Positions 36,197-48,382 of a stretch of 48,382 bases of DNA are shown piece after piece (position 1 is the first letter of the stretch; each line of letters starts with the position of its first letter). Position numbers and translations under genes: made by a program. Source of the DNA: Nitrospirota bacterium (GTDB lineage: Bacteria > Nitrospirota > Leptospirillia > Leptospirillales > Leptospirillaceae); assembly GCA_021801345.1 (NCBI GenBank), contig JAJYYA010000054.1:1-48382 (forward strand), read 5' to 3'. The notes under the pieces are model-generated. The model was not told where the DNA came from and did no database searches. It worked only from the letters and a program-made list of their open reading frames with translations.

Positions 36197-36778
36197 CTAT
36201 CCGGCCTTGCTGTTTGTCTTCATCTTCTTGATGGCGGCGGAGAGCTGGTCGAACTTCTCAGCCGAGTTGTCCCGGATGGTGAGGTTGGCGTCTTCGTGTC
36301 CCGCATGGGAGCAAAAAGCCATGGTATAGCAGCTCGTCCCGCCCCGGATAATCTTGAGCGAAAGATTGGCATAGTGGCAATGGACGCCCACGAAGAGGCA
36401 GACATCGATCTTGTTGTGCCAGATCGTGAGGTTCGGATGGTTCGGATTGATCTCGAACTCCGGCTCGATCTTCGGGTACTTGGGCCGATAGTCCGCCATG
36501 GGGATGATCTTGATGTTGTTGGACTCGGCGCACCGGAGAACCGCATCGGCCACCTTCCGGGTCTTGGCCGACCACTCCCAGAGGACGAGGGGGCCGGGGA
36601 AGAAGGTCGGAACCTTCGCCGTCGCAAGCTTTCTTGCTGCGGTTTCAATGGCCTCCTCTTCCGAGGCGGGAACGCCTTCGATCAGGGCAAAGCCTGGCTC
36701 GGGGGGCGGAACCCCCATGGAGATGGCCGCCGGGGGAAGGATCCCTTCGGGTCCGGGAAGAACTTTATAGGTCGTCAC
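36197..36778 (-). CDS. PorE/ForE-like 2-oxoacid:ferredoxin oxidoreductase accessory subunit, copy 1
   Basis: 193 residues. I recognise it as the family often labelled CO dehydrogenase beta subunit-like, whose members are the small extra subunit of five-subunit pyruvate/2-oxoglutarate:ferredoxin oxidoreductases in reductive-TCA bacteria. Marks: KVPTFFPGPLVLWEW, IIPMADYRPKYPKI, NPNHPNLTIWHNKIDVCLFVGVHC and RGGTSCYTMAFCSHAGHEDANLTIRD, with a Rossmann-like pattern and conserved Cys/His. GTG at 36778 has AGGAG about 8 nt before it. No other oxidoreductase subunit is adjacent. A second copy of identical length lies at 46763-47344. It has its own promoter and terminator. Confidence 0.75.
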   Translation of the reverse strand: MTTYKVLPGPEGILPPAAISMGVPPPEPGFALIEGVPASEEEAIETAARKLATAKVPTFFPGPLVLWEWSAKTRKVADAVLRCAESNNIKIIPMADYRPKYPKIEPEFEINPNHPNLTIWHNKIDVCLFVGVHCHYANLSLKIIRGGTSCYTMAFCSHAGHEDANLTIRDNSAEKFDQLSAAIKKMKTNSKAG

Positions 36779-37047: not shown

Positions 37048-38142
37048 TCAGGAAGCCGGATCAAGAAGAAGCGGGAGGCACCGGTTCCCGAACGAGACAG
37101 GCGGATCCCCCTCCCAGAACCGCCCCGCAAGAACGCTTCCGCAGGTGAGGCACTCTCCGGAGGGCCCCACATCATATCGTTCGATCCGGTAGCCGTCCCG
37201 CTCGATCTGCAAAGACCGACAGGAGGGACAGAGGGTCCGGCCCCCTTCCCGATCCCGGATGTTCCCCGTATACACATAATGAAGCCCCATGGACAGGGCT
37301 CTTCTTCTGGCCGCGTCGAGTGTTTCGAAGGGTGTGGGGGGAAGCTCTGCCATCCGGTAGTCGGGATGGAAGGCGGAGAAGTGAAGAGGGACGTCGGGCC
37401 CCAGCTCCCGGAGAATCCACGCGCAAAGCTCCGAAATTTCCCGCTCGGAGTCGTTTTCGCCGGGGATCAAAAGCGTCGTAATCTCAAGCCAGACCGAACT
37501 CTCCCGGCGGATGTGGAGGAGGGTTTCGAGAACGGGGGCGAGATGGCCCCCGGTGAGCCGGTGGTAGAAGGACTCGGAGAAGGACTTGAGGTCGACATTC
37601 GCCGCGTCCATATGCGAGAAGAACTCGCGTCGGGGATCCTCCCGGATGTATCCGGCCGTCACCGCCACCGTCCGGATCCCCCGGGCCCGGCAGGCCTTTG
37701 CCACATCGATCGCGTATTCGGCGAAGACGACCGGGTCATTATAAGTAAAGGCCACGCTTTTGGCCCCCGCACGCTCGGCCGCCCGGGCGATCTCCTCCGG
37801 AAGGGCGGAGTCGGTGAGGCGGTCGGTCGATCTGGCCCGGGAGATGTCCCAGTTCTGGCAAAACTGACAGGACAGGTTGCAGCCGGCCGTCCCGAAGGAG
37901 AGGACGGAGGAGCCCGGATAAAAATGGGCGAGAGGCTTCTTCTCGACCGGATCGAGGCAGAAGCCGCTCGCGCGGCCCCAGGTGTCGAGGAGCATCCGAT
38001 CCCCCTCCCGAAGCCTCACAAAACACAGTCCCCTCTGGCCTGGAAGGAGACGGCAGTCGCGGGGACAGAGGTCGCAGACGATACGATCCTCCTCTCGGTG
38101 CCACCAGCGGGCCTCACTTGCCGTCTTCAAGGAGCCGGTCAC
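37048..38142 (-). CDS. amrS: AmmeMemoRadiSam system radical SAM enzyme
   Basis: Radical SAM protein of the AMMECR1-Memo-RadicalSAM set, 364 residues. An N-terminal zinc-like Cys cluster (VCDLCPRDCRLLPGQRGLC) precedes the cluster motif CNLSCQFCQNW (Cys88, 92, 95; the CX3CX2C form), then VAFTYNDPVVFAEY, VTAGYI, DAANVDLKSF and a late Cys pair set (LCPSC, CLTCG). GTG at 38142 is preferred over the ATG at 38157: it has GGAGG before it and forms a GTGA overlap with the upstream gene's stop, the habit of this genome. The reaction is not established; a modification dependent on the partner proteins is presumed. Confidence 0.9.
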   Translation of the reverse strand: MTGSLKTASEARWWHREEDRIVCDLCPRDCRLLPGQRGLCFVRLREGDRMLLDTWGRASGFCLDPVEKKPLAHFYPGSSVLSFGTAGCNLSCQFCQNWDISRARSTDRLTDSALPEEIARAAERAGAKSVAFTYNDPVVFAEYAIDVAKACRARGIRTVAVTAGYIREDPRREFFSHMDAANVDLKSFSESFYHRLTGGHLAPVLETLLHIRRESSVWLEITTLLIPGENDSEREISELCAWILRELGPDVPLHFSAFHPDYRMAELPPTPFETLDAARRRALSMGLHYVYTGNIRDREGGRTLCPSCRSLQIERDGYRIERYDVGPSGECLTCGSVLAGRFWEGDPPVSFGNRCLPLLLDPAS

Positions 38143-39524
38143 GGTGCCTCCGACCATTTTTTCACCGTATAGCGGGAGACCTCGATCCCCTCAGGCCATC
38201 CCCTCTCCGGAAGTCCCGCCTTCGCCTTGAGATGGCGCAGGAACTCTCCCGGTTCGGGAAGCTCCTCCCAAACCTGCGGAAGAAAGGTTCCCCGGCGGGC
38301 TCCCAAAGAGAGAACCACCCCGTCCGTTCCCGGGCGAAGACTCTTCAGAATCTCCTCCTCCGAGGAGGCCGAAAGAGGCTCCAAAGGAGAGAGCAGCGAG
38401 ACCTCAAAGCGCACACCCGGAAGCTCCCGTCTTTCGAGCGGGGGAAATCTTGGATCGTGGAAGGCCGCCGCGCGCGCGTTCGCCCTGAGATCCTCAAGGA
38501 GGGGACGGCGCGCCTCGAGGCTTCCGATGCACCCCCGGAGCCTCCCGTCCTTTGTCAGCGTCACGAAGGTCGCCCCCGGCCGGGCCAGCCACGAAGCCTC
38601 CTCCGGATCCGAACAGTCCTCTTTTCCCTCCAGTGTCCCCGCCACCGCCTCCCGGGCCAGAGAAAGGAGAAGCGCCCCGTCTCCCTCCTCCCCCGACCCC
38701 GGACCATCGGGTCCGGGATCCCTCGGCGCATAGAAGGCGAAGGCCCCGTACCCCACGACCCGGTCGGAGGGCCCGGCGGTCGAGCCTGAGTTTTCAAGAT
38801 CGATCAGGACGGGGGTGAGCCGCCACCGCCTGGCGGCCAGGAGAAGACCGTTGACGGGGAAGGCCCCGCACGCGGCCTCGGGCGACAGGGAGGGATCGAG
38901 CCTTCCGATGCTCCGGGCCGTCCGGGAGTCCCGGACCTGGGCGTCCTCCATGGACAGGTAGTGGGAGAGGTCGGAGCTGACCACAAAAAGGGTCTCCGGA
39001 CCTCCCCTCACGGCTTCGAGGACCGAAAGGAGCATCGAAGGATCCGCCTCCCCCACCACCAGGGGAAGAATGGAGAAGTTCCGGAGCGCTCTCTGGAGAA
39101 AGGGCAGCTGGACCTCGAGAGAATGTTCGAGCCTGTGAGCCTCAGGACTTTCGATCACCCCGGGAAGGGCGGCCACCCTCCGGACGAGCTCCGGATCGAC
39201 CAAAACGTCGCCCACCGGCGTCCGGAAGAGATCGGCTCCGGGAAGGGCCACCCCCCGAAAAAACACGCGATGGGAAGGACCGAGAAGAATCACCCGGGTC
39301 GGGGGTTCCGGGGCCGAAAGGAGAAGGGCGTAGGCCGAGGCGGCCACGGCCCCCGAGTAGACATAGCCCGCATGGGGGACGATCAGGGCCTTGGGGAGAG
39401 CATCCGGAAAGGGAAGTCCGGTTCTCCGGGCCTCTTCGAGAAGGGCGTCCACCCCGGCGACCAGCGCCGCCCTCTCCCCCTCGTAGAAGCTTCCCGCCAC
39501 CGCCGGCCGACGAACCCGCTCCAT
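38139..39524 (-). CDS. Fused AmmeMemoRadiSam B (Memo) and A (AMMECR1) protein
   Basis: 461-residue fusion. Residues 1 to about 265 are a Memo domain related to extradiol dioxygenases: RRPAVAGSFYEG, VPHAGYVYSGAVAASAYALL, LLGPSHRVFFRGVA, HSLEVQLPFLQ and VVSSDLSHYLS supply the candidate metal His residues. After a Gly/Glu-rich linker, residues about 280-460 are AMMECR1: GATFVTLTKDGRLRGCIGSLEA (LRGCIG is the family signature), AAFHDPRFPPL, VRFEVSLLSPLEPL. ATG follows GGAAGGGGAG. In many organisms A and B are separate; the fusion with the adjacent radical SAM gene confirms they act together. Confidence 0.92.
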   Translation of the reverse strand: MERVRRPAVAGSFYEGERAALVAGVDALLEEARRTGLPFPDALPKALIVPHAGYVYSGAVAASAYALLLSAPEPPTRVILLGPSHRVFFRGVALPGADLFRTPVGDVLVDPELVRRVAALPGVIESPEAHRLEHSLEVQLPFLQRALRNFSILPLVVGEADPSMLLSVLEAVRGGPETLFVVSSDLSHYLSMEDAQVRDSRTARSIGRLDPSLSPEAACGAFPVNGLLLAARRWRLTPVLIDLENSGSTAGPSDRVVGYGAFAFYAPRDPGPDGPGSGEEGDGALLLSLAREAVAGTLEGKEDCSDPEEASWLARPGATFVTLTKDGRLRGCIGSLEARRPLLEDLRANARAAAFHDPRFPPLERRELPGVRFEVSLLSPLEPLSASSEEEILKSLRPGTDGVVLSLGARRGTFLPQVWEELPEPGEFLRHLKAKAGLPERGWPEGIEVSRYTVKKWSEAP

Positions 39525-39668: not shown

Positions 39669-40022
39669 CTACAAGGGCCCGTCGCTCTCGCCGGGGGCAT
39701 GGACGAAGTGATCCTGCCGGCTGACCCCCACATCCGAGACATACATGATCCCCGAATAGCGCTCGAAAAGAGGCGTGAGCCCCTCGAGGATAAGCTCCAC
39801 CTGAGCCTCCTTCACGACAGTCATGAGGAGCACGAGGCTCGAGGTCTCGTTGTAGATCAGGTTCCCCTCGTAAAATCCGCTGTGGCCCATGCCGGAGACG
39901 TTGGGGATGATCGTATAGCCCGTGACGCGGACCCTAGACAGCAGGTCCCGGACGAACGGAATGCGTTCTCCGCTCACGATGATGTCCACCTTTTTCATGG
40001 GGGTGAGACGTGCTTTCTCCAT
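39669..40022 (-). CDS. PII-like regulator of the DAB operon
   Basis: 117-residue protein of the PII (GlnB/SbtB-like) superfamily. The ferredoxin-like repeats can be followed: KKVDIIVSGERIPFVRDLLSRVRVTGYTIIPNVSGMGHSG, then LVLLMTVVKEAQVELILEGLTPLFERYSGIMYVSDVGVSRQDHFV. The T-loop is replaced by GMGHSGFYEGNLIYNE, without the uridylylated Tyr of GlnB, as in PII-like proteins linked with bicarbonate or CO2 transporters. The start overlaps the dabA stop by one base (TGATG), the last gene of dabB-antiporter-dabA-PII. Inferred role: adenylate- or bicarbonate-responsive control of DAB activity. Confidence 0.85.
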   Translation of the reverse strand: MEKARLTPMKKVDIIVSGERIPFVRDLLSRVRVTGYTIIPNVSGMGHSGFYEGNLIYNETSSLVLLMTVVKEAQVELILEGLTPLFERYSGIMYVSDVGVSRQDHFVHAPGESDGPL

Positions 40023-43000
40023 CAGTCGGTCCTTTCGTGTTGGGACAGTGGGGTTCGGGCGACCTCGGACCATCGTCCGGGAGCCTGCCAACGGCTGAGA
40101 ACCCTCTCGGAGGGGTCGGCGGCGACGAGCCGGATCCAGCCGTTCGACAAGAGCCGGCGAAGAGGGGGGTTGTTCGTCACAACGCGGTCGATCCGGTCGC
40201 GGCCAGCCTCGACAACCACCATGAGGCGGACCGGCTCGTGGTAGAGACGCTCGCCCTCCCGGAGCGTCTGGGAAGGAAGACCGGGAAGGAGGTCGCTCTC
40301 GTTTCCCCACATGATGCCGACCGCCCCGGCCACGTTGTGGTAGATTTTGTTTCCTCCTCCGTATCGCTCGGGGTCGAGGAGAGAGAAGTAGTGTTCGGCG
40401 TTGATCCACTGGCCGACGACAAGGGGGCCGGTCATGATCGCCTCGAGGAGCCGCCCGTCCGGGTCTCGCGCCGGGTCGTAGGAGTGCAGAAAGGCCCGTC
40501 CGGCAAAGTTGGCCGTCCCGGCAAGGGAGCCGCCTCCCACCACGAAAAAGGCATTTTTCGAAAGTCCCCATTCGGGTCGGACCTCGGCGGCGTCGCAGGA
40601 GCGCCGGAAGAGGGCTCGGGCCGCCTCCCGGGGACCGGAGGGAGAGTCGAGGGAGGGAAGCTCCGCCGCCCGCTCCTCCGCCGCCCGAAGCCCCGCCTCC
40701 TCGAGATCCCGCCAGAGTCGCTTGAGATCCCGCCGATGCGTCAGCGGGACCGACTCGAGGTCGTAGAAGGCGATCCTGTCGGTCGTGGTGTTGTGCTCTC
40801 CTGCCAAAAAGTGCGTGTCGTAGGGAATCTCGATCCCCCGTCTTTTCAGGCTGTCGCGCACTGCCGGGTTATTGGCCATCTCGACAAAGACCCTGGCGTT
40901 GGGGATCCCGCGGTTACCTCCGCAGGCCCCGCAGTCGAGGGCGGATTCGAAAGGATTGTTGAAGGAGTCGGAGCCGTGGCCGCAGACTAAGACAAGGCGC
41001 GCAAAGTTCTCGGTCTGGCCGATCGTCCTGAGGCTGTTCTCCACATGGTAGGCCTGCTCCTCCGTCCCGAACCCCACCGTCATGATCGTCTCGAGGAGGA
41101 CCCGGCTCCGGCGCATGTTGATGGTATAGAGAGTCCGGAGCTTCTTGATGAGGTCGGCCTCTCCGGGCGCGGTGAGAAGAAGCTCCTCCCGGGTCCTCAA
41201 GGAAAATCCTTCCAGAAACCGCGCCTCAGAAAGCGCCGCCTGACGGACCTCCTCGACGGTTGCCGGGCTGACGGAGCGGGTATGGGAACCCACCACGTCG
41301 AGAAGGGCCTTGCGGATCTTCGCATGCTGCTCGGCCTCGATCATGGCCTGGGCCTCCCCCTCCTCCACCCGGGCGACGGTCAGGGCGGTGGCGATTTCGG
41401 GAAGGACGAGTCCCCGGAAAAACTCCCGGATCCGGGCAAAGGCCCCCGGAAAAAAGGTCCGCCCGAGAAAGGGCAAAAGATAGAACCAGCCGAGAGCCTC
41501 CACGAGAACATAGGGAGTGATGACGTGGTCCTTGAGCTCGTGGAAGAGATGGACGAGAGAGCGCGTCTTCTGGTGGCGGCGAAAGTGACGATCCGCACGT
41601 TCGATTTCGTAGGCGCGGGGGATCTCCCTCACCCGATGGCGGGGCGAGAGGAGGACCGGCGCCTGGACCTGCGTCCCGGCCTTCTGGTAGGGCTGGAACC
41701 TGAAGGGCACCCCGAAAAATCCCGCGATCCCGTGGGTCGCGTACCCTCCGAGAGATTCGATATGGCGTCGAAGCCGTTCGGAGCGGACATCGATGCAAAA
41801 GAACATCTGGGCGGTAGGTCGTGCCCGGACAGGGATCTTGGCCGGCTCTGCCCGCCGCTCGCGCCACGGCTCAAACAGAGCGAACAGCTCCTGGTCGCAG
41901 CTTTCCTCGAGAGCCCGCTGCCAAATCTCGTGGCGTTTCGGGAAGTCGAGGGTATCGGCGATCTGTTCGAACCGCTCCCACTCCCTGGTGTCGATCCTGC
42001 CGACCTCCTCCGGGGAGAGACCCAGAGCCTGGGCCACATGGTAGAGACGGCCGGAGCGGCTCCGGCTTCCTCCCTCGGCCCGAAGGGCCTCGAGCCACTC
42101 TTCGCGAACTTGGGAAATTCTCGCCCAGCGAGGGTCTCCCGGTTCGGGGAAGCGGTCGGCCAACGTCCCCAGCCGGGCTCCCCAGGCCATCGGAACACCA
42201 AATCGGGCCGCATAGTTACGCGTCAAAAGTTCCGGTGCGTTCGCGCCGATCCATTCCAGAACGGCCGGGATCGTTCCGGGAATGCCGAGACGGGTCCGGC
42301 AGACATGCTCGACCACAGCCTGCTCGTAAAAGAGCCTCACAGCAAGGACCATCACGAGGTCGACGGGGTAGGTCCGGGCCCAGGGATCGTCGCTCTTCGA
42401 ATTGCGCCACTTGACGTACCCCAGCCATCCCGGGAGGGCGGTTGCGTGGCGCTCGAGATAGTCGGTGAGTCCCGCCCTCGGGATCTCCATCGCCACCAAG
42501 GCGCCCATGAGGGTGTCTTCGGGATTTTCCGGAAGCTCGGGAATCTCGGCGTGAGCCTCCTTCAGTCCCCAGAAGAGGATCTCCCGGTCGGAGGCGGCCA
42601 TGCTTTGCCAGACCCGGTAGAAGCCCCGTTCGCGATGGGGAAGATTCCAGGTGGAGACCCCTTCGTCGAGGAAGGCCCCGAGCCATTTGATCATCAGCCG
42701 GTCGATCCGGTGTTTCCACCGGCCGTCGCAAAAGATGTCCACCCACTCGAGAAGGGTCAAGGAGGGGCCGGGACGGGGAAGATACGAGGCGGCCGGATCG
42801 GACCACGCGACCCCCGGAAGCTCGCCGTCGACAAAGCCTTTACAGGCCTCCCAGAGCCGGAGGCAGTAGGCCTCCTCTCCCTCTGGGCCAAATCGCGCTT
42901 CGTGGAGGGCGCGGACCTCGGCCTCGAGATCCCGGCGAAGCCTGAAAAAGGCCGGACGCCCTTCGGACATGATCGGATCGGAGGAGAGGGGGCGATCCCA

Positions 43001-43402
43001 CTCGTAGAGAAGGTGCCCTTCAAGGAGCTCGGGAAGGGCGCGTCCGAAAAGCCGTCCTCCGGCCTCTCCCACCGCCCCGATCCCGGAGACCTCCGACCGG
43101 AGGATGGAGTGCAGGGTCTCCCGGCCGATCCTTCCCCGAAAGTACAGCTCGCGCCAGTCGTCGGAGTCGAGAGAGATCCGTCCCCCCAGAAGGGCCGAGG
43201 CCTTACGGATCGCCTCGAAGAAGGGCAGCTCCTCAAACTCGTGGAGAGGATTGTGGTGGATAAAGGTCGTCATCCGGTAGACGAAGGAGAGCGACTCGGA
43301 GGCCAGCTCCACATGGGACCTGAGACCGATCCTCTGTCCGTCGGAGATGGCGGAGAGGTCCCATTTTCCCGCGCGGGGGGCGGAGGAGAGTGCGTTCTTC
43401 AC
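40022..43402 (-). CDS. dabA: DabA-type inorganic carbon accumulation protein (DUF2309)
   Basis: 1126-residue peripheral protein with the beta-carbonic-anhydrase-like zinc site of DabA: Cys536 and Asp538 in FFCIDVRSE, His809 in CGHGSDS and Cys824 in ALDCGACGG. The His-to-Cys spacing of 15 equals that of Halothiobacillus DabA (His524, Cys539). Also typical: FIHHNPLHEFEELPFFEA near the N-terminus and HYFSLLDPERYGGGNKIYHNVAGAVGIMWG near the end. The protein is longer than the roughly 830-residue type protein, with about 100 extra residues between Asp538 and His809. It should hydrate CO2 on the cytoplasmic face, driven by the membrane subunits. GTG at 43402 overlaps the previous stop as GTGA. Confidence 0.95.
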   Translation of the reverse strand: MKNALSSAPRAGKWDLSAISDGQRIGLRSHVELASESLSFVYRMTTFIHHNPLHEFEELPFFEAIRKASALLGGRISLDSDDWRELYFRGRIGRETLHSILRSEVSGIGAVGEAGGRLFGRALPELLEGHLLYEWDRPLSSDPIMSEGRPAFFRLRRDLEAEVRALHEARFGPEGEEAYCLRLWEACKGFVDGELPGVAWSDPAASYLPRPGPSLTLLEWVDIFCDGRWKHRIDRLMIKWLGAFLDEGVSTWNLPHRERGFYRVWQSMAASDREILFWGLKEAHAEIPELPENPEDTLMGALVAMEIPRAGLTDYLERHATALPGWLGYVKWRNSKSDDPWARTYPVDLVMVLAVRLFYEQAVVEHVCRTRLGIPGTIPAVLEWIGANAPELLTRNYAARFGVPMAWGARLGTLADRFPEPGDPRWARISQVREEWLEALRAEGGSRSRSGRLYHVAQALGLSPEEVGRIDTREWERFEQIADTLDFPKRHEIWQRALEESCDQELFALFEPWRERRAEPAKIPVRARPTAQMFFCIDVRSERLRRHIESLGGYATHGIAGFFGVPFRFQPYQKAGTQVQAPVLLSPRHRVREIPRAYEIERADRHFRRHQKTRSLVHLFHELKDHVITPYVLVEALGWFYLLPFLGRTFFPGAFARIREFFRGLVLPEIATALTVARVEEGEAQAMIEAEQHAKIRKALLDVVGSHTRSVSPATVEEVRQAALSEARFLEGFSLRTREELLLTAPGEADLIKKLRTLYTINMRRSRVLLETIMTVGFGTEEQAYHVENSLRTIGQTENFARLVLVCGHGSDSFNNPFESALDCGACGGNRGIPNARVFVEMANNPAVRDSLKRRGIEIPYDTHFLAGEHNTTTDRIAFYDLESVPLTHRRDLKRLWRDLEEAGLRAAEERAAELPSLDSPSGPREAARALFRRSCDAAEVRPEWGLSKNAFFVVGGGSLAGTANFAGRAFLHSYDPARDPDGRLLEAIMTGPLVVGQWINAEHYFSLLDPERYGGGNKIYHNVAGAVGIMWGNESDLLPGLPSQTLREGERLYHEPVRLMVVVEAGRDRIDRVVTNNPPLRRLLSNGWIRLVAADPSERVLSRWQAPGRWSEVARTPLSQHERTD

Positions 43403-44739
43403 AGGCGCGCCCCGCCGAACCAGCCCAGGGTTCCGGCAAGATCCGTGACGAGAAGAAAGAATGAGGCGGCTCCAAAAGCCCAGAGCTCGCCTGGCCAGAG
43501 CCCTTTGACGACTTCGCGATCCCCGCGGGAGAGCGGCGGCGGAACGGACGAGAAGTAGCGCCGCAGGGAGGCAAGCGCCAGTGCAAAGGTCAGGAAGAGA
43601 CCGATCAGGACGCCGACTCCCAAAGCGGGGGACTGTTCGAAGATCCCTTCGATCAGGCGCCATTCTCCCAGAAGCCCTCCCACGACGGGCAGGCTCATCC
43701 CCTGAAAGGCGGCGAGAAGAAAGGCCAGCCTAAGGGGGGCAATCATGGCCCCGGCCCCGGAAAGCCCCGCCACCGTCCGAACCCGGAACCTCGCAATGAG
43801 GGCGGAGAGAACAAGCCCCCCCAGAAGGGAGGCCTGCGGAAGGAGGACGGCCAGAAAAAGCCCCCCCTCACGGCCGGCGGCGGATCCGGTGAGAAGCCCG
43901 GCCACCATGGCCCCCATGCCCGCAGAGGAGAGTCCGTCGGCCACCTCGGAAACGTAATGGGCGGTCTTGGCCCGGACAAGACCCAGAAGGCCCCATCCGA
44001 GAACACCCCCCTCCAGAAGGGTTGTGTCGGGAAAGGCCAGGGAAGGCCAGACGCGAAGCAGGTCGAAGACAAGAAGAGGGGGAAGGCACAGAAAGAAAAG
44101 CATGTCGAGCTGAAGAAACTCCGGGGCCACGACTCTCTCCGATCTCCGGGAAAGAGGCGCCGGGAAAAATAGAAGAAGGGCGGCAAGGAGCAGTGCCCCT
44201 CCGGCCGGGGTCGAGAGAAGCGCCCCCTTGAAGGAGAGGGCCAAAAGAAAGATCGAGCCCGCAAGGATCCGAAGGAGAAAGGCATTTCGGTAAGCTCCGG
44301 GATAGGCCCCCCCCAGGAAGCCGGCCCCGCTCAGGAGAAAAAGCCCCAGAAGGCCTCCGCCGGCGAGGATCCCTGAGACTTCATTTTCCAGAAAGGCGGC
44401 GCTCCCCGCCGACAGGAGGAGGCAGGGAAGCCAGACGCCAGGACGCCGTCCGTCTTTTGACGATCCGGTCTTTTCCGTCTGGACAAGAAGGAGCGGAATG
44501 AGCACGACCCCGAGACAGAGCGAGAGAAGGAGACCCTCCCGGGAGAGTCCCCCGACCATAAAAAAGGAAGGGACCGGAAAAGACAGGATCCTGCCCAAAA
44601 GCCAAAGGAGAAAGAGCCCGACCGGAAGAACGGTCGCCACGGCCCGTCTTCGGCCGGACGAAAAGAGCGTCCGCAAGAGAGGCGACAGTAGCGGGAGAGC
44701 CAGAAAGGGAAGAATACTCAGGGGAAAAGCGGTCCTCAC
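43399..44739 (-). CDS. NuoM/Mrp-like membrane subunit between dabB and dabA
   Basis: 446-residue polytopic protein, about 12-13 hydrophobic segments, distantly of the proton-conducting NuoL/M/N-Mrp family. The K-bearing helix is degenerate: KTAHYVSEVADGLSSAGMGAMVAGLL stands where DabB has the AKSAQFPFHFWLPD segment, so Lys remains but the WLPD is lost. LPVVGGLLGEWRLIEGIF matches the late LPGxxGFxGE helix. GTG at 44739 overlaps the dabB stop as GTGA; the stop overlaps dabA as GTGA. Classical DAB has one membrane subunit, so this looks like a second antiporter-like subunit of a three-part complex. Alternatively it is a separate ion channel. Confidence 0.8.
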   Translation of the reverse strand: MRTAFPLSILPFLALPLLSPLLRTLFSSGRRRAVATVLPVGLFLLWLLGRILSFPVPSFFMVGGLSREGLLLSLCLGVVLIPLLLVQTEKTGSSKDGRRPGVWLPCLLLSAGSAAFLENEVSGILAGGGLLGLFLLSGAGFLGGAYPGAYRNAFLLRILAGSIFLLALSFKGALLSTPAGGALLLAALLLFFPAPLSRRSERVVAPEFLQLDMLFFLCLPPLLVFDLLRVWPSLAFPDTTLLEGGVLGWGLLGLVRAKTAHYVSEVADGLSSAGMGAMVAGLLTGSAAGREGGLFLAVLLPQASLLGGLVLSALIARFRVRTVAGLSGAGAMIAPLRLAFLLAAFQGMSLPVVGGLLGEWRLIEGIFEQSPALGVGVLIGLFLTFALALASLRRYFSSVPPPLSRGDREVVKGLWPGELWAFGAASFFLLVTDLAGTLGWFGGARL

Positions 44740-46445
44740 GCCCTCTCCTTTCCGTCGAAGAGCTCGCGAAGACGCCAGAGCAGGCGATCGACCGGTTCGA
44801 CCACCCTGTGGAGAAAGAGATGCTCGACCGAGCCCCTGTTCAGGAAAAAGAGATAGAGGGCCTCCTGGCGCGAAAGGATCCAGGAGGGAAGGATCTGACG
44901 CCCCCGAACCCCCCGGAAAAACGCCACGACCCAGCCCGCGACGATCACGAAGGTGATGAGAAGGACGATCGGGGTAAACATCACCCACCCGACTCCGCCT
45001 GAGGAAAAGTAAAGGGCCCGGGTGGCAGGATCGGGATAGAGAAAGAGGTTGAACTTGTGGGCCGCCCCGATATATCCGTAGACGAAGAGAACGAGAACGG
45101 CGGTCCAGGGAATGGCGGCGGCAAAGGAGTCGAAGAGACGGGCCCGGGTGAGGCTGATGGTCACCTGGGAGACCGTGACCCAGCTGAAGAAAAGAAAGAC
45201 GACCGTCCCCTCCTCGCGCGACAGATGGATATCGGCCAGCTGGTGGGCGCCCAGGACGATGACGAGGGGAAGCACCAGCGTCACGAGTGCGACCGGAAGT
45301 CCACGGGAGAGATGGAATCCCTCGGGTGTGGCGGGCTCTTCGGCCATCCGCCGGGGGATCGCAGGATCCTTCCGGGCGATCGCGATCGCCGTTCCCGACT
45401 CAAGGAAGAGGGTAGCCTTGAAGATGCCGTGGGCGATGAGGTGGAAGACGGCGAGGGAAAACGCCCCGAGCCCGCACTCCATCGTCATGTAGCCCATCTG
45501 CCCCATCGTCGAAAATCCGAGCTTTCGCTTGACGTCGCTCTGGGTCAGCATGGTCGAGGAGCCGAAGAGGGCGGTGAGGAATCCTACGGCAAAGACAAGA
45601 TGCATGGAGAGGGGGGAGTGGGCGAAGAGGATCGAGGTCCGGTTCATGAGGTAGCCGCCGGCGTTGACGATGCCGGCATGCATCAGCGCGGAGACCGGAG
45701 TCGGCGTCTCCATCGTGTCGGGAAGCCAGAAGTGGAAGGGGAACTGGGCCGACTTGGCCATGCACCCGACAAAGAGGCAGAGAACGAGAGCGGACAGCGT
45801 CCCCTGGGAGACCGCCTCGGGGGTATTTTTCAGGATCTCGGCGATCCGGTCGAGGTCGAGGGTGTGGAAGCTTTCCTTTGCGATGAGGATTCCCGCCAGC
45901 ATGAACATGTCTCCCGCCCGGTGGACGAGAAAGGTCTTGCCCGCCGTATCGACGGCATTTCGTCTTCGGCGGTTGTGCGCCATGAGAAGGTAGAGACCGA
46001 GGCTCATGAGCTGCCAGAAGACGAAGATGAGCAGGAGGTTGCGGCTGGTGACGAGCATGACGAGCACCGAGGTTTCGGCGGCGACGAGACCAAAGAAGCG
46101 GCCGTAGTCCGGCTCACCGAGGAGGTAGCGGAGAGAGTAGGCCTGGACCACCGTGCTCACGCCGGTGACGAGGAGGACCATGATGGCGGAGAGACGGTCC
46201 ACTCCCCACAGGGGTCCCCCGGCAAGCCCGGGGAGGGTGACGGGAAGACGAAGGAGCAGCGGCCCCGAGGCAATCACCTCCCAGAGGACGAAAAGGCCGA
46301 GAAAGAAAGAAAAAGCGGTCGAAACAAGGGCGATGAGGGCGGTCCGGGGGGACTTGACCCCGCACGCGTCAAAGAGAAAGAGAAGAAGAGCCCCCAGGAG
46401 GGGGAGGGCCGGCAGAAGAACCGCCGCCCCGTCCTGCATCGCCAT
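44736..46445 (-). CDS. dabB: DabB, NuoL-like membrane subunit
   Basis: 569-residue NuoL/MrpA-type membrane protein with about 14-16 helices. Family motifs: SLRYLLGEPDYGRFFG, FWQLMSLGLYLLMAH, KTFLVHRAGDMFML, KSAQFPFHFWLPDTMETPTPVSALMHAGIVNAGGYLMNR (Lys and the WLPD helix of the proton path) and FSTMGQMGYMTMECGLGAFSLAVFHLIAHGIFKATLFL (His/Lys path). A C-terminal amphipathic part ends in RLLWRLRELFDGKERA. ATG follows GGAGAG. DabB proteins pair with DabA for ion-gradient-driven CO2/bicarbonate accumulation. First gene of dabB-antiporter-dabA-PII. Confidence 0.94.
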   Translation of the reverse strand: MAMQDGAAVLLPALPLLGALLLFLFDACGVKSPRTALIALVSTAFSFFLGLFVLWEVIASGPLLLRLPVTLPGLAGGPLWGVDRLSAIMVLLVTGVSTVVQAYSLRYLLGEPDYGRFFGLVAAETSVLVMLVTSRNLLLIFVFWQLMSLGLYLLMAHNRRRRNAVDTAGKTFLVHRAGDMFMLAGILIAKESFHTLDLDRIAEILKNTPEAVSQGTLSALVLCLFVGCMAKSAQFPFHFWLPDTMETPTPVSALMHAGIVNAGGYLMNRTSILFAHSPLSMHLVFAVGFLTALFGSSTMLTQSDVKRKLGFSTMGQMGYMTMECGLGAFSLAVFHLIAHGIFKATLFLESGTAIAIARKDPAIPRRMAEEPATPEGFHLSRGLPVALVTLVLPLVIVLGAHQLADIHLSREEGTVVFLFFSWVTVSQVTISLTRARLFDSFAAAIPWTAVLVLFVYGYIGAAHKFNLFLYPDPATRALYFSSGGVGWVMFTPIVLLITFVIVAGWVVAFFRGVRGRQILPSWILSRQEALYLFFLNRGSVEHLFLHRVVEPVDRLLWRLRELFDGKERA

Positions 46446-46762: not shown

Positions 46763-47344
46763 CTAGAAGCCCCGGGAGTTCGATTTCATCTTCTTGAGAG
46801 CGTCCGTCAACTTGACGAAGGTCTCCGGCGTCGTGTCCCGGACCGAGAGGTTGGCGTCCTCGTGACCTGCCATGGAGCAGAAGGCCATCGTATAGCAATC
46901 GGTTCCGCCCCGGATGATCTTGAGGGCCAGGTTGGCCTGGTGGCAGTGGACCCCCACAAAGAGGCAGGCATCGATCTTGTTGTGCCAGATGGTCAGGTTC
47001 GGGTGGTTGGGATTGATCTCGGTCTCGGGGTCGATCTTCGGATACTTCGGCCGGTAGTCGGACATGGGAATGATGTGAACTCCGCCCTCGACGGCCGCCT
47101 TCTTGATGGCTTCCGCCATCTTGGCCGACTTTTCGTTCCACTTCCAGAGGACCAGGGGACCGGGGAAGAATGTGGGGACCTTGGCCCGGGAAAGGACGCG
47201 GGCGCTTTCCTCGATGGCCTGTTCCTGGGGAACGAGAACCCCTTCGATATGGCCCTGGCCCGGATCGGGCAGGGAGATTCCCATCATGGCGGCCGCCGGA
47301 GGCAAAAAGGCTTCCGGACCTGGCTTGACTCGATAGTTTGACAC
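46763..47344 (-). CDS. PorE/ForE-like 2-oxoacid:ferredoxin oxidoreductase accessory subunit, copy 2
   Basis: 193 residues, the same length as copy 1 and about two-thirds identical by eye. It shares KVPTFFPGPLVLW, IIPMSDYRPKYPKIDPE, INPNHPNLTIWHNKIDACLFVGVHC, RGGTDCYTMAFCSMAGHEDANLSVRD and the KKMKSNS end. The N-terminal third and the segment after PLVLW differ most. The start is GTG at 47344, preceded by AAGGGAT, which makes the N-terminus (SNYRVKPGPEAFLPPAA) align with copy 1; a longer frame to 47509 is not needed. No catalytic oxidoreductase subunits are adjacent. It stands 318 nt above dabB on the same strand, behind a good promoter. Confidence 0.75.
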   Translation of the reverse strand: MSNYRVKPGPEAFLPPAAAMMGISLPDPGQGHIEGVLVPQEQAIEESARVLSRAKVPTFFPGPLVLWKWNEKSAKMAEAIKKAAVEGGVHIIPMSDYRPKYPKIDPETEINPNHPNLTIWHNKIDACLFVGVHCHQANLALKIIRGGTDCYTMAFCSMAGHEDANLSVRDTTPETFVKLTDALKKMKSNSRGF

Positions 47345-47924
47345 GGGCGATCCCTTCGTTTCCGGATAAGGAGGGGGTGTTCCCGCTCCACGATTTAGGT
47401 CCCATCTCCAATTGCCTGCTGGCCGGACCCCCTCCGCGCACCCTCCGGAGCCCGTCTGACGGACACCCCGAAAATCCTGCCGGGTTCGTCGATCTTGGAG
47501 ACCAGCCATGTGATTTTTGCAAGTCGTTTTATTCTAAAGAGGCCGCCTTCCCAGGTCAAGCATTCTTCGACCAAACGGCCAAAACCAAAGGCAGAGACGA
47601 CTCCGTCGTCCGCGCATCCTTCCCCGGACTGAAGTCCCGAGGTTTGCAGCTCACGCGCACTGGATCAACGAAATAAGCAGTAAAATCACACATATATGGT
47701 TTGTCCACTTGCAATTATCTGAATTGCCCAATAAATCCACACTTCGAATATACTTCCTGCATTTTTCCCCTTTTTAAGTTGTTGCGACCTCTTTTTGAAT
47801 CCGGACCACATGTCTCAAGGTCGAATCCTTAGCCGATGGAGTTCGACAAAGAAGATTTTTCCTTTGTATTCTGTCATTTCAGGATGTGACTTCAGATACG
47901 CCAACAGCCGCATGAACTCTTCCG
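47345..47924. other. Intergenic region between PorE/ForE-like copy 2 and the TnpB element
   Basis: About 580 nt. The proximal 180 nt are the leader of the PorE/ForE-like gene. The distal part (about 47680-47900) is markedly AT-richer than its surroundings, consistent with insertion-associated or foreign DNA. A minus-strand frame of 32 codons (47815-47913) starts just beyond the element's hairpin; it is not recognised. Confidence 0.5.
47531..47559 (-). promoter_or_regulatory. Sigma70-type promoter of PorE/ForE-like copy 2
   Basis: Minus strand TTGACC (47554-47559), 17-nt spacer, TAGAAT (47531-47536); each hexamer matches 5 of 6. Start near 47524, leader about 180 nt. Confidence 0.65.
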
Positions 47925-47947
47925 CCACTAAGCTGACGCTGTAGTGG
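47925..47947 (-). repeat. IS605-type right-end hairpin overlapping the tnpB stop
   Basis: CCACTA and TAGTGG pair over an 11-base loop; the tnpB TAG lies in the 3' arm. Position and form fit the subterminal right-end hairpin of IS200/IS605 elements, which is also the 3' part of the TnpB guide (omega) RNA. The element should end within about 20 nt beyond 47925. Confidence 0.6.
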
Positions 47948-48382
47948 GGGTTTCCGGTCTCGCGACCGAACGTTCCTCTTTCGCCGAGGATGCGCGAAGG
48001 CGTTTGGGCCTTTGCGTCTTATTCTCCTCTCCGGAGGCTTTAACTTCGGACAGTTCCTGCCCTAGATGTTTACGTTTTCCGATCCCGCACCGCCGGACAG
48101 GCTTTTTCTGGATCTCGCCTTCCAGAAGAAGCCGGACTCCCCTTTTGGCAATGACCAGGCTTGCGTTTTGATCGGCGTTGTCCGTATGTCCGCAGCGCTG
48201 GCAGACGAACAAAGCCTGTGAGACTCTGTTGTCCGGGTGAATGTGCCCGCATTCGGCACATTCCTGCGAACTGTATTGCGGCGAAACCTTGATCACGAGC
48301 TTCCCGGCCCTATGGGCCTTGTACAAGAGACAGACCACGAACAGACCCCACATGGAAGAGAGTACGGCCCGGGCGAGACCGG
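47928..48382 (-). CDS. tnpB: TnpB (IS200/IS605 OrfB), C-terminal part, cut by window edge
   Basis: The last 150 codons of a TnpB RNA-guided nuclease gene; the 5' part lies beyond 48382. The frame reads GLARAVLSSMWGLF, YKAHRAGKLVIKVSPQYSSQECAECGH, VSQALFVCQRCGHTDNADQNASLVIAKRG. This is the zinc ribbon (CxxC twice: CAEC, CQRC) plus the RuvC-III DxxxN-type motif (DNADQNAS), both intact. The tail is basic and ends PETPTTASA at the right-end hairpin. No tnpA is within the window on this side. The nuclease end looks undamaged, so the gene may be functional if the missing part is whole. Confidence 0.88.
   Translation of the reverse strand, partial: GLARAVLSSMWGLFVVCLLYKAHRAGKLVIKVSPQYSSQECAECGHIHPDNRVSQALFVCQRCGHTDNADQNASLVIAKRGVRLLLEGEIQKKPVRRCGIGKRKHLGQELSEVKASGEENKTQRPKRLRASSAKEERSVARPETPTTASA

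Follow-up and report, generated by a model that had tools for sequence, protein, structure and literature searches.

The window, a stretch of 48,382 nucleotides, carries four overlapping genes in the order dabB-mid-dabA-PII, in which mid denotes the gene for the middle protein (Table 1). Overlaps of 4 nt with the sequence GTGA join dabB to mid (...GGGCGTGAGG...) and mid to dabA (...CCTGTGAAG...), and the dabA/PII junction is a TGATG overlap (...GACTGATGGAG...). These junctions had been described in the same way in the initial annotation and were confirmed when they were re-read; its further proposal, that the four genes are one co-translated set, is supported by the overlaps. Because the same tight overlaps are seen again in genus relatives (L034, L035 and L041), and because mid is under coding constraint, the operon layout is not a product of chance. 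Pfam families were matched by DabB (PF00361, 5e-55, plus PF00662), DabA (PF10070, 1e-239) and the PII-like protein (PF00543, 2e-20); the Pfam search gave no match for mid, and the Rfam search found no element.

Table 1. Features of the dab operon and of its flanks in the window.
Feature	Coordinates	Strand	Description
dab operon	39669-46445	-	dabB, mid, dabA and PII-like gene
dabB	44736-46445	-	569 aa; predicted NuoL-type proton-conducting subunit; PF00361/PF00662, match to DabB2
mid	43399-44739	-	446 aa, GTG start; predicted degenerate NuoM-type third subunit of DAB1-type complex
dabA	40022-43402	-	1126 aa, GTG start; long-type DabA, predicted beta-CA-like CO2-hydrating subunit
PII-like gene	39669-40022	-	117 aa; predicted CPII-type
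PF02552 gene, downstream	36197-36778	-	CODH/ACS-epsilon-like
Radical SAM gene	37048-38157	-	radical SAM protein
Memo-AMMECR1 gene	38139-39524	-	Memo-AMMECR1 fusion
PF02552 gene, upstream	46763-47509	-	CODH/ACS-epsilon-like
Sigma-70-like match	47531-47559	-	upstream of the upstream PF02552 gene
Transposon gene fragment	47928-48380	-	window edge; Cas12f1-like TNB domain (TnpB-type transposon protein)

The operon is bracketed, on the same strand, by two PF02552 paralogues that are 67% identical to each other. This bracket is also found in genus relatives with long enough contigs (L034, L035, L037 and L039-L042); in L053/L054 both copies lie upstream of dabB, and two more copies are situated side by side elsewhere in the genome studied here. 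The genes for the radical SAM protein and the Memo-AMMECR1 fusion, which lie between PII and the downstream PF02552 gene, occupy the same place in L034/L035 and were not found there in L037-L042. Because the sigma-70-like match is the sole one near the operon start, and because the scan listed no terminator-like site between the upstream PF02552 gene and dabB, the transcript may perhaps start at this match.

DabA and DabB retain all of the residues that work on DAB2 has assigned to catalysis or to the proton path, and they matched the DabA2 and DabB2 structure chains at 1e-89 (9rd0_A) and 6e-44 (9rd0_B), respectively. The DabA zinc ligands C536, H809 and C824 and the dyad D538/R540 are identical in 63 of 63 aligned DabA sequences, short ones included. 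The same count applies to the finger glutamate E635, the counterpart of DabA2 Glu444 and, in the alignment, of the FVE glutamate in short DabA. At a constant offset of -4, DabB K231, S252, H256, K306, S312, H335, H339 and K343 correspond to DabB2 K235, S256, H260, K310, S316, H339, H343 and K347, so that 8/8 proton-path positions are identical; these eight DabB2 residues were probed by mutation in DAB2 (PMC13144422). With an offset of -6, the first ion-pair residues are matched by DabB R176 and D179, and Q145 is found at the position of the closing glutamate of NuoL, where DabB2 has Ile. By homology and residue content, the operon belongs to the DAB/DAC (DabA-DabB) complexes, and one-way, proton-driven CO2 hydration is predicted for it by analogy with the DAB2 structure (PMC13144422).

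The sequence of mid alone is nearly unrecognisable, with a weak match to the NuoM model TIGR01972 (4.7e-5); the profile of the mid family finds E. coli NuoM (3e-20), and Nitrospira homologues of mid match TIGR01972 at 7e-24 in their second half (TM7-14). The AlphaFold model of mid, which is of modest to low confidence (pLDDT 62, pTM 0.64), gave matches to NdhD3/NdhB-type folds, the best being NdhD3 of NDH-1MS (6tjv_D; E 3.4e-4, TM 0.60). Judged by these profiles, mid is a degenerate NuoM-type subunit of NuoM descent, and its earlier description as NuoM/Mrp-like is supported as regards NuoM-type homology. The same description had credited mid with a Lys helix and an LPxxGGLLGE helix, had noted the lack of a WLPD segment, and had taken these features to suggest a modified ion path. 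LPVVGGLLGE is indeed present at residues 350-359, and WLPD is absent from the mid sequence, but the supposedly kept lysine (K258) and glutamate (E359) occur in only 7 of 22 homologues each and show no conservation outside the genus. By this alignment they are not family-wide catalytic residues, and the proposed ion path is not supported.

The alignment further indicates that mid is without the TM7 lysine, the WLP segment and the HxxxHxxxK helix of antiporter subunits, the antiporter KSAQ-PFH-WLP being replaced by LPL-P-H. Only eight columns are invariant among the 22 members, and these are mostly Pro and Gly, plus Arg319. Identity to the L034 proteins is 61% for mid versus 82% for DabB and DabA, so mid is evolving faster; differences from the L034 gene at codon positions 1/2/3 amount to 0.32/0.21/0.56, which points to coding constraint. 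Other candidate identities for mid were rejected. A duplicate of DabB is ruled out because the mid profile finds NuoM and not NuoL and gives no alignment to this DabB, a full antiporter by the missing Lys/His set, and a random overlapping ORF by conservation and codon-position bias.

Conservation of the middle gene between dabB and dabA, on which the initial annotation had made its three-subunit proposal depend, was borne out in many genomes when 98 distinct long-DabA loci, drawn from 61 relatives and a named genome scan, were surveyed. Because this DabA served as the query, the survey is biased to Nitrospirota; both Nitrobacter plasmid copies are included, and Gammaproteobacteria, H. neapolitanus among them, lie outside it. 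A separate mid accompanies dabB in 60 of the 98 loci, mid is fused to the C-terminus of DabB in 8/98, and 12/98 have no mid of either form, the remaining loci being cut or otherwise arranged. The gene occupies the same slot, with tight overlaps, across Nitrospirota, Nitrospinota and other phyla. Where they are complete, the reading frames of the fused genes (L055, L056, L057/L125, L061, L044, L110, L115 and L134) span 864-913 aa; the genes come from Nitrospirota, Planctomycetota (Scalindua) and a Myxococcota-type MAG. When trimmed to their core, separate mids share 33-41% identity with the C-terminus of a fused DabB, whole mids aligning onto the DabB part instead. For a model of the fused protein (pLDDT 70, pTM 0.73), the top Foldseek matches listed were mostly NuoL-type single chains.

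In a DabA tree obtained by a quick search, with a midpoint root and some long branches, the loci without mid group together in a single clade (SH-aLRT 100), as do the fused loci (SH-aLRT 99), and both clades are nested among mid-bearing lineages. The simplest reading of the sequence tree is that mid had one origin, one loss and one fusion. Absence of mid from orthologous operons, which had been named as a finding that would speak against a three-subunit system, was encountered in a single clade made up of 12 Nitrospira loci and reads on the tree as one loss. That mid touches DabB is well supported by the fusion, and because many genomes keep mid between dabB and dabA and one clade has it fused, it very likely belongs to the DAB complex. 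Seven Nitrospira-type operons (L046, L083, L097, L099, L102, L103 and L109) have a tandem pair of dabB genes, followed by mid, dabA and PII, and possibly each set there contains an extra membrane subunit.

Of the 96 long-DabA loci in which this could be evaluated, 89 have PII directly behind dabA and 7 have none; in 2 further loci the place of PII is cut off. A paper of 2017 (PMC5700660) had already pointed out a PII gene at the 3′ end of operons in one nuoL-ybcC clade. Of 123 plasmid records that bear a DabA gene, 3 carry a CPII-like PII, of which two are actinobacterial, with dabB-dabA-PII and no mid, and the third, from Nitrobacter hamburgensis, has the full four-gene order twice. The sole PDB relatives of the PII-like protein that reach E 0.01 are the Thiomonas CPII entries 5d4n and 5d4l (5e-25), from which about half of the aligned residues differ, as judged by eye. 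With CPII, and not GlnB/GlnK, as its nearest solved relative, the protein is classified as CPII-type. Two other PII genes are located elsewhere in the genome, which also harbors two further DabA genes; these encode short proteins (830-838 aa) in two-gene dabB-dabA loci, neither of which has mid or PII. A search of the genome for the RuBisCO large subunit gave no match.

The operon most probably encodes a DAB1-type, proton-driven, CO2-hydrating three-subunit complex with a dedicated CPII-type PII, in which mid would serve for coupling or as a scaffold; we hold this reading with good, though not complete, confidence. Its observed basis is the gene set, family membership, intact residues, conservation, fusion and CPII kinship, and the published work contributes the DAB2 mechanism and the fact that the Halothiobacillus DAB1 three-gene set works; from these we infer the role of mid, the activity of this copy and control by PII. 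Protons would enter through DabB, and the finger helices of DabA, with Glu635, would complete the periplasmic half-channel. At the buried DabA zinc site, CO2 would be converted into bicarbonate in one direction only, powered by the proton-motive force. The mid protein would pack against DabB and most likely act in assembly, at an interface or in coupling, rather than as a second proton pump, and the PII-like protein would most likely sense adenylate and/or bicarbonate and tune the complex.

If mid were instead a functional second proton channel, an extra proton would be used per CO2 hydrated and a larger bicarbonate gradient would result. The NuoM-type fold and descent of mid fit such a channel, antiporter subunits work in pairs in complex I and NDH-1MS, and a second dabB is located upstream in 7 Nitrospira loci; nevertheless, we regard it as improbable, given that the TM7 lysine, the PFH-WLP segment and the HxxxHxxxK helix are missing or replaced, that K258 and E359 are kept in 7/22 homologues only, and that mid diverges much more quickly than its neighbours (61% vs 82% identity, L034). 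There is similarly little to be expected of the explanation that the operon is DAB by descent while mid and PII are dispensable passengers held by operon linkage. Such passengers are hard to reconcile with the constant slot of mid and its tight overlaps across phyla, its fusion to DabB in one clade, its coding constraint, and the presence of PII after dabA in 89/96 evaluable long-DabA loci, even though the 12-locus clade with dabB-dabA-PII lacks mid and the actinobacterial plasmids do likewise. Three-subunit complexes reportedly need all of their subunits, a statement attributed to Schmid et al. in 2021; the existence of mid-less long-DabA operons argues against a universal need for mid.

For PII, a more serious alternative, although one that we place short of an even chance, is that it reports the carbon state to another target, an enzyme or transcription, and shares with the DAB complex the promoter alone. 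PII proteins act on many targets, and the title of one paper describes CPII as carboxysome-associated. On the other hand, PII is linked to dabA itself, both beside carboxysomes in Nitrobacter and here, where no RuBisCO large subunit was found, and the linkage persists in mid-less operons. Control of the DAB complex by PII is a reasonable guess by analogy with SbtA-SbtB, the comparison case for such control (PMC8438413). More tentatively, and with some doubt, the CPII-type PII might bind the three-subunit complex directly and switch CO2 hydration on or off according to how much adenylate and bicarbonate is present, mid being the membrane protein to which it docks or couples. If this is true, PII binding would give DAB a post-translational gate comparable to that of SbtA-SbtB, in a bacterium whose genome yielded no RuBisCO match.

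Among known systems, the DAB2 of H. neapolitanus (PDB 9rd0; PMC13144422) shares with the operon the DabA zinc site, the finger glutamate and the DabB proton path, but it has two subunits and a short DabA (870 aa), and the paper names no mid or PII. Questions that the DAB2 structure cannot answer, about the role of the third subunit and a possible gating of the pump, can be approached through the natural DabB-mid fusion, the one clade without mid and the tight link of CPII to long DabA. A further comparison is offered by the cyanobacterial NDH-1MS operon, ndhF3-ndhD3-cupA-cupS (PMC11456788). It encodes a NuoL-type protein, a NuoM-type protein, a CO2-hydrating protein and a small protein in the order found here, but as part of a ferredoxin-driven complex I. 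Because CupA and DabA are not known to be related, NDH-1MS and the four-gene DAB look like a parallel design, which supports, without proving, a role for mid beside DabB.

On plasmid 1 of Nitrobacter hamburgensis (NC_007959), two copies of dabB (565 aa), a hypothetical gene (253 aa), a DUF2309 gene (1037 aa) and a P-II gene agree with the operon in order and strand. An alpha-carboxysome operon is adjacent there, and the middle protein, which aligned with the mid family (prob 89%, 2e-6), corresponds to the C-terminal NuoM core only.

The closest precedent in gene order is DAB1 of H. neapolitanus (hneap_0907-0909 and PII), in which NuoL, a putative transmembrane protein, a 1046-aa DUF2309 protein (1126 aa here) and a PII/SbtB homologue follow one another (PMC4633670). 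Its middle protein is described as small, compared with 446 aa here, and the genes adjoin carboxysome and CbbOQ genes, whereas PF02552 genes flank the present operon and no RuBisCO large subunit was found. DAB1 has been explicitly termed a three-subunit DAC (PMC13144422), and carbonic anhydrase-free E. coli was rescued by dabAB1 together with the interstitial PF00361 gene (PMC7714395). Because a three-subunit DAB1 with the same neighbours, PII included, had already been described (PMC13144422, PMC7714395, PMC4633670), the premise of the initial annotation that the established DAB system has two subunits only is outdated, and the idea of DAB as a two-gene system is corrected. The four-gene order having been described in Halothiobacillus, the operon is a further instance of a known layout. 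What the present analysis adds is that mid descends from NuoM and has lost the ion-path residues, that it is fused to DabB in some loci, how the loci group into clades, and that CPII is linked to long DabA. Conservation of the four-gene DAB1 layout is wide and extends to an organism whose genome gave no match to RuBisCO.
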